Positions 2,960 through 31,842 of a stretch of 36,939 nt of DNA are shown one piece after another. Both the position numbers and the translations under genes were made by a program. This stretch comes from Streptomyces hainanensis (GTDB taxonomy: Bacteria; Actinomycetota; Actinomycetes; Streptomycetales; Streptomycetaceae). How positions within the stretch are numbered: the first letter of the stretch is position 1; the number at the start of each line of letters is the position of its first letter. Location of the stretch: the NCBI RefSeq assembly GCF_004348415.1, contig NZ_SMKI01000011.1, positions 1 through 36,939 of the forward strand, written 5' to 3'. Under the pieces are notes generated by a model. The model made no database searches, was not told the origin of the DNA, and was given only the letters and a program-made list of their open reading frames with translations.

Positions 2960-3031
2960 TGGGGTATGGTGTAATTGGCAGCACGACTGATTCTGGTTCA
3001 GTTAGTCTAGGTTCGAGTCCTGGTACCCCAG
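2960..3031 (+). tRNA. tRNA-Gln (CUG)
   Basis: A 72-nt cloverleaf. The acceptor TGGGGTA pairs with TACCCCA, with discriminator G. The anticodon stem ACTGA/TCAGT encloses the loop TTCTGGT (anticodon CTG), and the T-arm loop is TTCGAGT. CCA is not encoded. First gene of a three-tRNA operon. Confidence 0.96.
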
Positions 3032-3053
3032 CACGATCTTTCACGAGATCAAG

Positions 3054-3126
3054 GCCCCCGTTGTGTAGCGGCCTAGCACGCCGCCCTCTCAAGGCGGTAG
3101 CGCCGGTTCGAATCCGGTCGGGGGTA
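3054..3126 (+). tRNA. tRNA-Glu (CUC), copy 1
   Basis: A 73-nt cloverleaf. The acceptor GCCCCCG pairs with CGGGGGT (first pair G-U). The anticodon stem CCGCC/GGCGG holds loop CTCTCAA (anticodon CTC), and the T-loop is TTCGAAT. The discriminator is A and CCA is not encoded. It is identical to the copy 100 bp downstream. Confidence 0.97.
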
Positions 3127-3153
3127 CGGTGATCCACCAGGATCTCCTTGTGA

Positions 3154-3226
3154 GCCCCCGTTGTGTAGCGGCCTAGCACGCCGCCCTCTCAAGGCGGTAG
3201 CGCCGGTTCGAATCCGGTCGGGGGTA
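3154..3226 (+). tRNA. tRNA-Glu (CUC), copy 2
   Basis: Identical in sequence to the tRNA-Glu at 3054-3126, with a 27-nt spacer between them. It is followed by a hairpin terminator and is the last gene of the tRNA operon. Confidence 0.97.
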
Positions 3227-3242
3227 CTCGACGGCACGTGGC

Positions 3243-27107: not shown

Positions 27108-27186
27108 TTCGTCATCGCGTGACTGTACGGCATCGGGGCGGCGACGGAAGTGCTCGGAAGTGAAAAGCCGGGATAGCGTGCGTCAC

Positions 27187-27516
27187 ATGGATCACCCCGC
27201 GTCTCCCCCCGGCGGCCCCGCCGAGCCCGTCGACCCGGACGAGCCCGTCCGGTTGACCGTCTGGGTGCGTGGCCTGGTGCAGGGCGTGGGCTTCCGCTGG
27301 TTCACCCGTGCCACCGCCCTGGCCGTGGGGGAGTTGAGCGGTTTCGCCCTCAACCTCGCCGACGGCCGGGTCCAGGTGGTGGCCGAGGGGCCGCGGGACC
27401 GCTGCGAGCGGCTGCTGGCCTGGCTGCGGGAGGGCGACACGCCCGGCCGGGTGGACGGGGTGACCGAGATATGGGACACACCCCGCGGCGGCTACCGGGA
27501 CTTCGCGATCCGCTGA
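27187..27516 (+). CDS. Acylphosphatase
   Basis: 109-aa small hydrolase of acyl phosphates. The family core follows a 20-residue acidic/proline N-terminal extension: [20 protein letters not shown] includes the VxGxVQGVGFR signature with the catalytic arginine, and [18 protein letters not shown] carries the catalytic asparagine. The ATG at 27187 has no ribosome site and lies 7 nt after TAGCGT, so the message is probably leaderless. In many actinomycetes the gene precedes smc, as here; the functional link is unclear. All catalytic residues are present. Confidence 0.95.
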
Positions 27517-27634
27517 GGGCACCGCCCCACACCGGGGGAATGTCCCGGAAACTGCTTGCCAACCCCGCTCCGACGTGCAAGGCTGCCGCCAGAAACCGCC
27601 CGGGGGCCACTCTCCGCTCCCGCGGACCGAAACC

Positions 27635-27656
27635 ACCGCCCCTCGTCGCGGGCGGT
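27635..27656 (+). terminator. Candidate terminator after acylphosphatase
   Basis: ACCGCCC (27635-27641) pairs with GGGCGGT (27650-27656) around an 8-nt loop. Located in the 335-bp gap after acylphosphatase, before the next predicted promoter. Confidence 0.4.
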
Positions 27657-27697
27657 AGGCGGCCCAGCCGCCCCAGCCTCTACGCGGTGTGATCGTG

Positions 27698-27726
27698 TTG
27701 ACCGTCCCACTTTTTGGTGAGACGCT
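27698..27726 (+). promoter_or_regulatory. Predicted promoter of the 68-aa coiled-coil gene
   Basis: TTGACC (27698-27703), 17-bp spacer, GACGCT (27721-27726). The -35 is strong and the -10 weak. It would give a leader of about 120 nt before the ATG at 27852. Confidence 0.45.
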
Positions 27727-27732
27727 GAAACT

Positions 27733-27811
27733 CCCGCGCATCCCAGCTGTGTGGCCCTGAAAACCAAGGGCGAAAGCGGACGTCGCGGGTTCAATCCCTC
27801 ACGACCCACCA
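27733..27811 (+). other. Structured leader with tRNA-like T-arm
   Basis: CCCGCG (27733-27738) pairs with CGCGGG (27784-27789), enclosing a hairpin GCCCT/AGGGC (27754-27771). Overlapping its 3' side is GGGTTCAATCCC, a tRNA T-arm match, followed by CACGACCCACCA, which looks like a tRNA 3' end with encoded CCA. No matching 5' acceptor strand exists upstream, so this is not a complete tRNA. It is either a degenerate tRNA 3' half or a structured 5' leader. Confidence 0.35.
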
Positions 27812-27851
27812 ACGGCTTCGGTCGGTCACTCAGTGTGGAGGACCATCCATC

Positions 27852-28058
27852 ATGGCAAAGGCGCTTCTCGGACACGTCGGCGGCTCCGACCCCCGAGTCC
27901 TCGCCGAGATGCGACGGCTTCAGCAGCGCGTGCAGGACCTGGAGACCCAGCTCCTCCGGGTCCAGGCGGAGAACGACGCGCTGGCCGCCGCCGCTCGGCA
28001 CGGCGACTCGGTGCTCGACAGCATCGACATGCCCAAGGCGGAGCCCGCTCTGACCTGA
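27852..28058 (+). CDS. Small conserved coiled-coil protein, function unknown
   Basis: 68-aa acidic protein. MAKALLGHVGGSDPRVLAEM is followed by a heptad-rich helix (about 18-48, RRLQQRVQDLETQLLRVQAE) and a short tail ending in EPALT. I remember near-identical small proteins before smc in Streptomyces, so it is a real gene, but no function is known. The coiled coil suggests oligomerisation. The ATG at 27852 has GGAGGACC about 9 nt upstream. It has a long upstream leader and is followed by a hairpin at 28107, so it is probably monocistronic. Confidence 0.85.
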   Translation: MAKALLGHVGGSDPRVLAEMRRLQQRVQDLETQLLRVQAENDALAAAARHGDSVLDSIDMPKAEPALT

Positions 28059-28106
28059 CCTCAAGGACGAGGCCGGGCCGCGAAGGCACTGCTAGCGGAT
28101 AATGCG

Positions 28107-28126
28107 AGGGACGCTTCGGCGTCCCT
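28107..28126 (+). terminator. Terminator after the 68-aa gene
   Basis: AGGGACGC (28107-28114), TTCG tetraloop, GCGTCCCT (28119-28126), then TCGTCATG. A compact stable hairpin 48 bp after the stop codon. The remaining gap to smc (28127-28281) shows no gene. Confidence 0.75.
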
Positions 28127-28267
28127 TCGTCATGTCCGGCCTCCTCCCGGCCGAACCCGGGGCCCCGACCGACGACTGATCGCGTCGGCCTACTCACTGA
28201 TGTGCCCTCCTTCCTCCACATCGAAACGGCGAATCGTCCAAAGGACGAATCGGGCCACCTCGCCCGG

Positions 28268-28273
28268 TAAAGT
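28268..28273 (+). promoter_or_regulatory. Candidate -10 element of smc
   Basis: TAAAGT ends 8 nt before the smc GTG at 28282, and there is no Shine-Dalgarno. Upstream at 17-18 bp only a weak ACGAAT/GACGAA is seen. Suggests a leaderless smc transcript. Confidence 0.4.
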
Positions 28274-28281
28274 CGCACGGC

Positions 28282-31200
28282 GTGCACCTCAAGAGCCTGA
28301 CCCTGCGCGGGTTCAAGTCCTTCGCCTCGGCCACGACGCTGCGCCTGGAGCCCGGCATCACGTGTGTGGTCGGGCCGAACGGCTCGGGCAAGTCCAACGT
28401 GGTGGACGCGCTCTCCTGGGTCATGGGCGAGCAGGGCGCCAAGTCGCTGCGCGGCGGCAAGATGGAGGACGTCATCTTCGCCGGCACCACGGGCCGCCCG
28501 CCGTTGGGCCGCGCCGAGGTCTCCCTCACCATCGACAACTCCGACGGCGCGCTGCCCATCGACTACACCGAGGTCACCATCACGCGGACCATGTTCCGCA
28601 ACGGCGGCAGCGAGTACCAGATCAACGGCAACACCTGCCGGCTGCTCGATGTCCAGGAACTGCTCTCCGACTCCGGCATCGGCCGTGAGATGCACGTCAT
28701 CGTCGGCCAGGGCCAGCTGGACTCCGTGCTGCACGCCGACCCCACCGGGCGCCGCGCCTTCATCGAGGAGGCCGCCGGCGTGCTCAAGCACCGCAAGCGC
28801 AAGGAGAAGGCGCTGCGGAAGCTCGACGCGATGCAGGCCAACCTGGCCAGGGTCCAGGACCTCACCGACGAACTGCGGCGGCAGCTCAAGCCGCTCGGCC
28901 GGCAGGCCGCGGTGGCCAGGCGGGCCGCCGTCATCCAGGCCGACCTGCGGGACGCCAGGCTGCGGCTGCTGGCCGACGACCTCGTCGCCCAACGGGCCGC
29001 GCTGCGCGCCGAGATCGCCGACGAGGCCGCGCTCAAGGAACGCAAGGAGAGCGCCGAGACGCGGCTGAAGGACGCGCTGCGCCGGGAGTCGGAGCTCGAA
29101 CAGGATGTGCGGACGCTCGCGCCCCGCGTGCAGCGCGCCCAGGACACCTGGTACGCGCTCTCTCAACTCGCCGAGCGGGTCCGCTCGACCATCAGCCTGG
29201 CCGACGCCCGGGTCACCAGCGCAACCTCGCAGGCTCCCGAGGAGCGCCGCGGCCGCGACCCCGAGGACATGGAGCGCGAGGCGGCCAGGTTCCGCGAGCA
29301 GGAGGCCGAGCTGACCGCCGCGCTGGAGGCGGCGAGCCGGGCGCTCGAGGACACCGTCGACCACCGCGCGGACCTGGAACGCCGGCTGGCGCAGGAGGAA
29401 CGGCGGCTCAAGGACGTGGCCCGCGCCATCGCCGACCGGCGCGAGGGGCTCGCCAGGCTGCACGGCCAGGCCAACGCGGCCCGCGGCCGGGCCGCCACCG
29501 CCCAGACCCAGATCGACCGGCTGGCCGTCTCCCGTGACGAGGCCGCGGAGCGGGCCGCCGAGGCGCGGCGCGAGTACGAGGCGCTGAGCGCCGAGGTCGC
29601 CGACCTCGACGCGGACGACACGGGGCTGGCCGACGAGCACGACGCCGCCAAGCGGGAACTCGCCGCGGCCGAGGCCGAGCTGAGCCGCGCCAGGGACGCC
29701 GTCACCACCACCGAACGGGAGCGGGCCGCCGTCTCCGCCCGGCACGACGCGCTCGCGCTCGGGCTCCGCCGCAAGGACGGCAGCGGCGCACTGCTCGCCG
29801 CCGGCGACCAGTTGACCGGGCTGCTCGGCCCCGCCGCCGAACTGCTCACCGTCGCGCCCGGCTTCGAGGTCCCGGTGGCCGCCGCGCTCGGCGCCGCGGC
29901 CGACGCCGTCGCCGTGGACGGTCCCGCCACCGCCGTCGAGGCCCTGCGCCTGCTGCGCAAGCAGGACGCCGGCCGCGCCGCGCTGCTGCTCGGCGGCGTG
30001 CCGGGGGACGAGCCGGCCCAACCGCCGGCGGACGGCACGCGGCGCGCCGCCGACCTGGTCAGCGGCCCGCCGGAACTGCTGCCCGCGGTGCGCTGGCTGC
30101 TGCGCGGCGTGGTGGTGGTCGCCACCCTGGAGGACGCGCTCGACCTGCTCGCCACCCGGCCCGAACTGACCGCCGTCACCGGCGAGGGCGACGTGCTCGC
30201 CCGCCACCTGGCGCAGGGCGGTTCGGCCGGCGCGCCCAGCCTGTTGGAGGTGCAGGCGTCCGTCGCCGAGGCCGCGGCCGAGCTGCGCGAGCTGACCGGG
30301 CGGCGCGTCGAACTGACCGCCGACCAGGCGGCGGCCGCGGAGCGCCGGGCCACCGCCGTCGCCAGGGTGGAGGAGTTGGCCCAACGGCGCAGCGCGGCCG
30401 AACGCGCCAGGTCGAAGGTGGCCCAGGACGTCGGCCGGCTCGCCGGGCAGGCCAGGGGCGCCGCCGGGGAGGCCGAGCGGGCCGAGGCGGCCGTCGTCCG
30501 GGCCCAGGAGGAGTTGGCGAAGGCCGTCGAGCAGGCGGAGGAGATGGCGGAACGGCTGGCCGTCGCGGAGGAGTCGGGCGACGTCGACGAGGAGCCCGAC
30601 ACCTCCGTCCGCGACCGGCTCGCCGCCGACGGCGCCAACGCCCGGCAGACCGAGATGGAGGCGCGGCTCCAGGTCCGCACCCACGAGGAGCGGGTGAAGG
30701 GCCTCGCCGGCCGGGCGGACGCGCTCGACCGCGGGGCGCGCGCCGAGCGGGAGGCGCGGGCGCGCGCCGAGCGGCGGCGCGCCCGGATGCGGCACGAGGC
30801 CGAGGTGGCCGGCGCGGTGGCGGCCGGTGCCCGCCAACTGCTGGCGTATGTCGACGCCTCGCTGGAGCGGGGCGGGACCGAGCGGGAGGCCGCCCAGCTG
30901 GCGAAGACCGAGCGGGAGCAGGCCCTGGTGGCCGAGCGGGCCGGCGGCCGGGAGCTCAAGGACGAGTTGGACAAACTGACTGACTCGGTGCACCGCGGCG
31001 AGGTGCTGGGGGCGGAGAAGCGGCTGCGGATCGAGCAGTTGGAGGGCCGGGCCCTCGAGGAGCTGGGTGTCGATCCGGCGGTCCTGGTCGACGAGTACGG
31101 GCCCGACCAGCCGGTGCCGCCCTCCCTGCCGGCCGAGGACGAGGTGCTGCCCGACGACCCGGAGGACCCGCGCAACCAGCCGCGCCCCTTCGTCAGGTCG

Positions 31201-31842
31201 GAACAGGAGAAGCGGCTCAGGGCCGCCGAGCGTGCCTACAAGCAGCTGGGCCAGGTCAACCCGCTGGCGCTGGAGGAGTTCGCGGCCCTGGAGGAGCGGC
31301 ACAAGTTCCTCAGCGAGCAGCTCGACGACCTCAGGAAGACCAGGGCCGACCTGCTCCAGGTCATCAAGGAGGTCGACGAGCGGGTCGAGCAGGTCTTCAC
31401 CGCCGCCTACCACGACACGGCCCGGGAGTTCGAGGGCGTGTTCTCCCGGCTCTTCCCCGGTGGCGAGGGGCGGCTGATGCTGACCGACCCGTCGGACATG
31501 CTCACCACCGGCGTGGAGGTGGAGGCCCGGCCGCCCGGCAAGAAGGTCAAGCGGCTCTCCCTGCTCTCCGGCGGCGAACGCTCGCTGACCGCGGTGGCCC
31601 TGCTGGTGTCGATCTTCAAGGCGCGGCCGAGCCCCTTCTACGTCATGGACGAGGTGGAGGCCGCCCTCGACGACACCAACCTCCAGCGGCTGATCCGGAT
31701 CATGGAGGAGCTGAAGGACAGCTCCCAGCTCATCGTGATCACCCACCAGAAGCGCACCATGGAGGTCGCCGACGCGCTCTACGGCGTCTCCATGCAGGGG
31801 GACGGGGTGTCCAAGGTGATCAGCCAGCGGCTCTCGGCCTGA
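28282..31842 (+). CDS. smc: Chromosome segregation protein SMC
   Basis: 1186-aa condensin ATPase that organises and segregates the chromosome with ScpA/ScpB. The N-terminal head VHLKSLTLRGFKSFASATTL has Walker A GPNGSGKSN (31-39) and the RGGKMEDVIFAGT and GQGQLDSVL segments. A long coiled coil (about 165-500), the hinge (about 500-655, with LLGPAAELLTVAPGFEVPVA), a second coiled coil and the C-terminal head with signature LSGGERSLTAVALL (about 1094) and Walker B FYVMDEVEAALDD (about 1118) follow. GTG start at 28282 matches the universal N-terminus. Charged Ala/Arg/Glu coiled coils make the opposite strand look open, but no gene is there. Complete. Confidence 0.98.
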   Translation: MHLKSLTLRGFKSFASATTLRLEPGITCVVGPNGSGKSNVVDALSWVMGEQGAKSLRGGKMEDVIFAGTTGRPPLGRAEVSLTIDNSDGALPIDYTEVTITRTMFRNGGSEYQINGNTCRLLDVQELLSDSGIGREMHVIVGQGQLDSVLHADPTGRRAFIEEAAGVLKHRKRKEKALRKLDAMQANLARVQDLTDELRRQLKPLGRQAAVARRAAVIQADLRDARLRLLADDLVAQRAALRAEIADEAALKERKESAETRLKDALRRESELEQDVRTLAPRVQRAQDTWYALSQLAERVRSTISLADARVTSATSQAPEERRGRDPEDMEREAARFREQEAELTAALEAASRALEDTVDHRADLERRLAQEERRLKDVARAIADRREGLARLHGQANAARGRAATAQTQIDRLAVSRDEAAERAAEARREYEALSAEVADLDADDTGLADEHDAAKRELAAAEAELSRARDAVTTTERERAAVSARHDALALGLRRKDGSGALLAAGDQLTGLLGPAAELLTVAPGFEVPVAAALGAAADAVAVDGPATAVEALRLLRKQDAGRAALLLGGVPGDEPAQPPADGTRRAADLVSGPPELLPAVRWLLRGVVVVATLEDALDLLATRPELTAVTGEGDVLARHLAQGGSAGAPSLLEVQASVAEAAAELRELTGRRVELTADQAAAAERRATAVARVEELAQRRSAAERARSKVAQDVGRLAGQARGAAGEAERAEAAVVRAQEELAKAVEQAEEMAERLAVAEESGDVDEEPDTSVRDRLAADGANARQTEMEARLQVRTHEERVKGLAGRADALDRGARAEREARARAERRRARMRHEAEVAGAVAAGARQLLAYVDASLERGGTEREAAQLAKTEREQALVAERAGGRELKDELDKLTDSVHRGEVLGAEKRLRIEQLEGRALEELGVDPAVLVDEYGPDQPVPPSLPAEDEVLPDDPEDPRNQPRPFVRSEQEKRLRAAERAYKQLGQVNPLALEEFAALEERHKFLSEQLDDLRKTRADLLQVIKEVDERVEQVFTAAYHDTAREFEGVFSRLFPGGEGRLMLTDPSDMLTTGVEVEARPPGKKVKRLSLLSGGERSLTAVALLVSIFKARPSPFYVMDEVEAALDDTNLQRLIRIMEELKDSSQLIVITHQKRTMEVADALYGVSMQGDGVSKVISQRLSA

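Follow-up and report, generated by a model that had tools for sequence, protein, structure and literature searches.

The window, that is, the whole stretch of 36,939 nucleotides of Streptomyces hainanensis DNA analysed here, carries on its forward strand an acylphosphatase-like gene (27160-27516), a leader, a gene encoding a protein of 68 amino acids (27852-28058, with the start codon at 27852), and smc (28282-31842), in this order. The first gene is presumed to be acylphosphatase-like from its place and from the gene order in relatives. The 68-aa protein, whose gene is served by the leader, is coiled-coil-like and runs from MAKALLGHVGG to EPALT. Between its gene and smc, a hairpin (GGGACGC-TTCG-GCGTCCC) was noticed by eye at 28106-28125. 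It follows the 68-aa gene, which therefore may be a separate transcript. This hairpin is missing from the output of the terminator scan, and the scan of 27500-28300 returned no sigma-70-like or terminator-like sites at the scanner's thresholds.

Homologues of the 68-aa protein are found in all 150 genomes of the family Streptomycetaceae (17 of 17 genera) and in 160 of 246 genomes of the class (67 of 103 genera). The best 80 of its 583 named relatives are all from Streptomyces. No Pfam or NCBIfam family is matched by the protein at the cut-off. In 19 of the 20 loci fetched for the gene-order check, 18 of which come from other families, smc follows the small gene within 1.4 kb and in the same orientation; three family loci obtained earlier agree. 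The gap between the two genes is below 0.5 kb in 17 of these 19 loci and wider in L260 and L263. In the single exception (L270, from f26), smc is absent from the neighbourhood of the small gene. To judge from sequence, the 68-aa protein thus appears to represent an unnamed family, and its position upstream of smc suggests a link to SMC. SCO5576 denotes an acylphosphatase and smc carries the number SCO5577, which leaves the 68-aa gene probably without an SCO number. It would therefore be invisible in many transcriptome tables.

The leader has a predicted promoter of its own at 27698-27726 of the forward strand, where the preliminary description had placed it. TTGACC (27698-27703) is followed, after a 17-nt spacer, by GACGCT (27721-27726), and the TGA directly ahead makes this an extended -10. 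The arrangement TTGACC-N17-GAnnCT is kept in all 122 leaders of the family, preceded by the triplet TGA (116 leaders) or TGC (6 leaders), and a related form is seen in 74 of the 79 leaders from other families. The exact string TGATCGTGTTGACC has one copy in the genome of S. hainanensis.

The -10 hexamer has G in place of the initial T. This G is found in 122/122 family leaders, with a conserved TG ahead of it, and deviates from TANNNT, which is the form reported for the -10 of S. avermitilis (PMC8780764). This fixed deviation may point to an activator protein or to a sigma factor of a special type. MtrA is reported to bind at smc in two species of Streptomyces (PMC5845573, Table 1; ChIP-seq data in GSE84311). 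This binding is a lead for the promoter but not for the RNA.

Of 199 Streptomyces genomes, 196 contain a match to the DNA of the leader. Among the 30 positions immediately before the small gene (-30 to -1), 29 are at least 95% identical over 59 loci from 58 genomes, whereas only 5 of the 30 positions before smc reach this level at the same loci. The promoter and the ribosome-binding block are conserved far more than the neighbouring smc leader. The folding energy of the whole leader is unremarkable (z -1.06, with 30 of 200 shuffles as good). What precedes the small gene looks like a conserved mRNA leader and not a tRNA. The preliminary description had proposed to check relatives for conservation and covariation. 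Both are found, the covariation in the 5' stem of one genus.

The leader sets used below overlap to some extent. The 122 family leaders comprise 115 distinct sequences, with G087 counted twice, and the leaders of the 80 named Streptomyces overlap with them, so these two sets are not independent. From the class, 79 of 80 loci could be read, as L176 ends at a contig edge. Alignment A2 holds 32 of 50 leaders after thinning; the 18 left out include all long g14 leaders. A3 has 52 rows (29 from the family and 23 from others) drawn from block-carrying families only (f1, f8, f13, f17, f18, and f22); seven of the family rows were added by hand, and L106 was picked for its GACA/UGUC change. A4 contains 14 of the first 18 g7 leaders, A5 contains 8 of 11 g14 leaders, and A6 contains 26 of 35 g7 leaders. 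Omitted from A6 were L082, L114, L117, L121, and L249, which have a different inner region, and the near duplicates L241, L243, L245, and L253. The 117 control genes come from one Streptomyces genome, with their starts picked by a script rule.

At the 5' end of the predicted RNA, CCCGCG (27733-27738) pairs with CGCGGG (27784-27789) around an inner hairpin. This is the long-range helix of the preliminary description, and it is recovered when 27731-27789 is folded (-27.6 kcal/mol, z -3.09, with 1 of 200 shuffles as good). We call this domain (27733-27789) P1. Its 3' strand, which pairs with the 5' end of the RNA, CCCCGCGC(A), contains the letters that had been likened to a T-arm. In 32 of 37 single-sequence ensembles, the 5' end has at least three expected pairs with the central part of the leader. 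For the 14 g7 leaders of A4, the RNAalifold prediction combines P1 with a stem inside it (P1b) and with two further helices, P2 and P3. The covariation score of A4 is 0.140 against 0.107±0.011 for shuffles, 2 of 500 of which score as high; the rows of A4 to A6 are related, and such shuffle counts therefore overstate the evidence. For P1 and P1b in the 26 g7 leaders of A6, double changes occur in four pairs (10 cells), and the score is 0.135 against 0.096±0.009 (0/500 shuffles), with P1 supplied from the A4 consensus and not predicted on A6. The score is 0.066 or less once the partner strand is slid. The strongest sign that the leader functions at the RNA level is the covariation of P1 and P1b; it comes from related sequences and mostly from P1b, the letters of which are absent from the window.

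P1 is missing from the RNAalifold consensus of the 32 mixed leaders of A2, and only 8 of 34 family leaders, and none of 16 others, pair in P1 better than their shuffles (p below 0.05). The mixed alignments A2 and A3 show no covariation. The minimum-energy fold of L066, which at 88 nt is among the shortest family leaders, is P1-P2-P3, and that of a 75-nt piece of L132, from another family (f17), is P1-P3. On A6, the unprompted RNAalifold consensus brings the Shine-Dalgarno region into pairing with the 5' end, in place of P1. Pairing of CCCCGCGC with GCGUGGAGG over the Shine-Dalgarno sequence has more than one expected pair in 0 of 37 ensembles. Since it has no weight in single-sequence ensembles, it is kept only as an alternative.

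The preliminary description had also seen in the leader a likeness to the T-arm and CCA end of a tRNA, and had suggested that it might be a tRNA in decay or a scar left by tRNA-targeted integration. The letters are all there, GGGTTCAATCCC at 27787-27798 and CACGACCCACCA at 27800-27811, and they include ACCCACCA, which looks like a tRNA 3' end. In reality, positions 27787-27811 complete the 3' strand of P1 and link it to P2. The T-loop pattern GGTTCRANYCC occurs five times in the window against 0.39 expected, a number reached by 0 of 100 shuffles; three of the five matches are real tRNAs and one lies within smc. The match in smc is a chance T-loop, GGTTCAAGTCC, at 28310-28320, inside the start of the gene. 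The resemblance of the leader to a T-arm with CCA is not confirmed beyond chance. An exact T-loop is found in 1 of the 122 Streptomycetaceae leaders, which is the window's own, and in 1 of the 80 named Streptomyces leaders (best 80 of 583 relatives), that of Streptomyces sp. MP131-18. ACCCACCA alone is slightly commoner (12 of 122 family leaders, and 20 of 80 named Streptomyces leaders among the best 80 of 583). GGGTGC is present in 80 of the 122 family leaders and GGGTTC in two.

ARAGORN and Rfam (at the gathering threshold) detect only three tRNAs in the window, all at 2960-3227, and ARAGORN finds none in 40 scanned loci (39 from relatives and the window's own). Between 27500 and 28100, none of 4227 Rfam families is matched at E up to 10. 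The genome holds no second copy of the leader, other matches being 15-26 bases long with E above 2. The leader does share with tRNA (RF00005) the GGGTTCAATCCC stretch and a CCA 12 bases further on, but a 5' half is missing, neither ARAGORN nor Rfam reports a match, and the T-loop letters, which are specific to the lineage, are not conserved. A scar is further opposed by the presence of the leader in nearly all genomes of the genus, mostly without a T-loop, and by the gene order kept beside smc. Both origins were rejected on these grounds, and we regard a tRNA remnant or scar as highly improbable.

The Shine-Dalgarno sequence, GGAGG (27837-27841), lies in the 3' strand of a hairpin at 27824-27844, GGUC-A-CUC-AGUGUG-GAG-GACC, which we call P3. 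RNAalifold gives P3 as a consensus without prompting, both on 32 family leaders and on 52 leaders of six families. In this consensus, GGUC and CUC, separated by a bulged base, pair across a six-base loop with GAG and GACC; the ribosome-binding block as a whole reads GGUC-A-CUC-AGYGUG-GAG-GACC. On the 32 leaders, P3 with two outer pairs is all that is predicted, with no helix upstream. The strict motif is present in 112 of the 122 family leaders and in 73 of the 80 named Streptomyces leaders (best 80 of 583). Outside the family, at least six of the seven P3 pairs can form in 35 of 79 leaders compared with 2 of the 117 control genes, and all seven in 30 compared with none. The families concerned are f8, f13, f14, f17, f18, and f22, with the bulge missing in f14. 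P3 is absent in this frame from the other 44 of the 79 class leaders, including all those read from f9, f19, f26, f28, and f31. Some f19 leaders seem, by eye and without a count, to have GGCC..GGCU replacing the helix.

The P3 helix is nearly invariant. Over the 52 leaders of A3, 98.9% of its 364 cells are paired and no double change occurs. Shuffles cannot separate P3 from conservation of sequence. The energy of P3 is ordinary (z -1.0). A covariance model of the block, R1, which was built partly from sequences that it later found, hits 88 of the 296 genomes of the class, each at one place; 28 of the 88 belong to the window's genus and 60 do not. A smaller search, of 21 relatives, gave matches at E up to 1 in 16 of them, including the 13 of the window's genus and three of f45/f46, one of which is weak; there are a few further weak matches, and G001 carries two strong copies of the block.

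A conserved hairpin that pairs the Shine-Dalgarno sequence is thus found, yet it dominates few of the single-sequence ensembles. When family leaders are folded with their own first codons, only 8 of the 37 ensembles give P3 more than two expected pairs. The Shine-Dalgarno sequence is paired mostly into the start of the coding region in 15 of the 37, and with an upstream stretch in g14; in nearly all 37 it is mostly paired with something. Unusual occlusion of this sequence was considered as evidence and dropped, because about a quarter of the 117 control genes (~26%) are as occluded as the family median or more. What stands out here is conservation rather than strength.

The family keeps a direct repeat, GGUCGGUC, in 108 of its 122 leaders, and also a GACC upstream of it. 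In the window, GACC (27803-27806) can pair with the first GGUC (27820-27823), forming P2, or with the second (27824-27827), forming P2b. The first of these pairings can coexist with P3; the second excludes it. The first register appears in the unprompted consensus of A4, and the second in those of A5 and A6. An upstream partner for the second GGUC is present in 112 of 114 distinct leaders (those of the 115 examined with a readable P3 frame), compared with 57.9 expected from base shuffles, and the inner ACCG/CGGU pairing of P2b is present in 71 of the 114. In g14 leaders, P2b arises unprompted and shows a single double change (GACA with UGUC), a weak test in which 62 of 500 shuffles are as good. 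The Shine-Dalgarno sequence is not freed in these leaders but pairs with a run of pyrimidines upstream. A switch between P2 and P2b may follow from these alternative pairings, and is a proposal rather than a result.

With moderate confidence, we favour a cis-acting 5' leader RNA of about 120 nt that controls translation of the smc-adjacent 68-aa protein. On this model the leader may hide the landing site of the ribosome and so set the amount of the protein. Transcription would start a few bases past the extended -10. The new 5' end of the RNA would fold back first, as P1, and the short hairpin P2 would form next. P3, or a related pairing, would then cover the ribosome-binding site and hold down translation until it is opened. 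Pairing of the upstream GACC with the first copy of GGUCGGUC would leave P3 intact, and a shift to the second copy would break it. A protein, a small RNA, temperature, or a ligand are candidates for the trigger. Transcription of the leader, a reduction of translation by P3, and the opening of P3 by P2b are inferred. The computed support consists of the conserved promoter and Shine-Dalgarno block, P3 arising unprompted, a 5' stem that covaries in one genus, and one block per matching genome. A cis-acting RNA had been among the suggestions of the preliminary description; deep conservation, an unprompted consensus hairpin over the Shine-Dalgarno sequence, and the covarying 5' stem (in one genus) support it, and the lack of double changes in P3 and its prominence in a minority of ensembles count against it.

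The same block can be read differently, as a site selected for its sequence and bound by an RNA-binding protein or a small RNA, the hairpin being the frame that presents it and the bound factor blocking or helping the ribosome. This would account for a P3 conserved as sequence down to its loop (AGCGUG, AGUGUG, or AUCGUG) with no compensating changes, for the single block per matching genome, and for the fact that most single-sequence ensembles favour some other fold over P3. It fits less well with the bulged base, which varies (A, U, or G, and absent in f14) while the pairs persist, and we consider it possible but rather doubtful. A plainer explanation would be that the region holds ordinary conserved signals, a fixed promoter and a strong ribosome-binding site for steady expression with no switch, and that its folds are by-products of G+C-rich sequence. 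The energies of the leader and of P3 are indeed near those of shuffles, occluded ribosome-binding sites are common among the control genes, and P3 is dominant in few ensembles. However, conservation reaches past the promoter and the Shine-Dalgarno sequence, a P3-type helix is rare in the control genes, and the 5' stem covaries in one genus, so that this explanation is unlikely.

The cis-acting leader RNA, as favoured here, has a wider version in which the leaders form an undescribed family of translational RNA switches, present in several Actinomycetes families, attached to one gene, and controlling a coiled-coil protein tied to smc. We put this forward only tentatively, as something that may well prove wrong. 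If it is true, the leader would use its conserved 5' end and its GGUCGGUC repeat to toggle the ribosome-binding site between hidden and open, and a cell signal would be linked to production of a chromosome-associated factor. The strong conservation of the leader, together with the unnamed gene adjacent to smc, points to an overlooked regulated factor.

Searches of the literature (open-licence papers) found no description of the leader or of the small gene. Leaders that sequester the Shine-Dalgarno sequence are a known kind, which includes riboswitches, RNA thermometers, and the leaders of ribosomal-protein genes. Most riboswitches have a fixed ligand-binding core; in contrast, the family leader varies from 93 to 180 nt in length after the -10. 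PMC8780764 names actino-pnp as a cis-regulatory element in Streptomyces. That element belongs to a different gene, and the window leader matches no Rfam model, but both would be conserved cis-regulatory leaders of Streptomyces. Apart from its lack of an Rfam family match, the leader resembles Shine-Dalgarno-sequestering leaders in being a long conserved 5' leader with upstream helices, in its consensus hairpin over the Shine-Dalgarno sequence, and in a possible competing hairpin that shares one strand with it.
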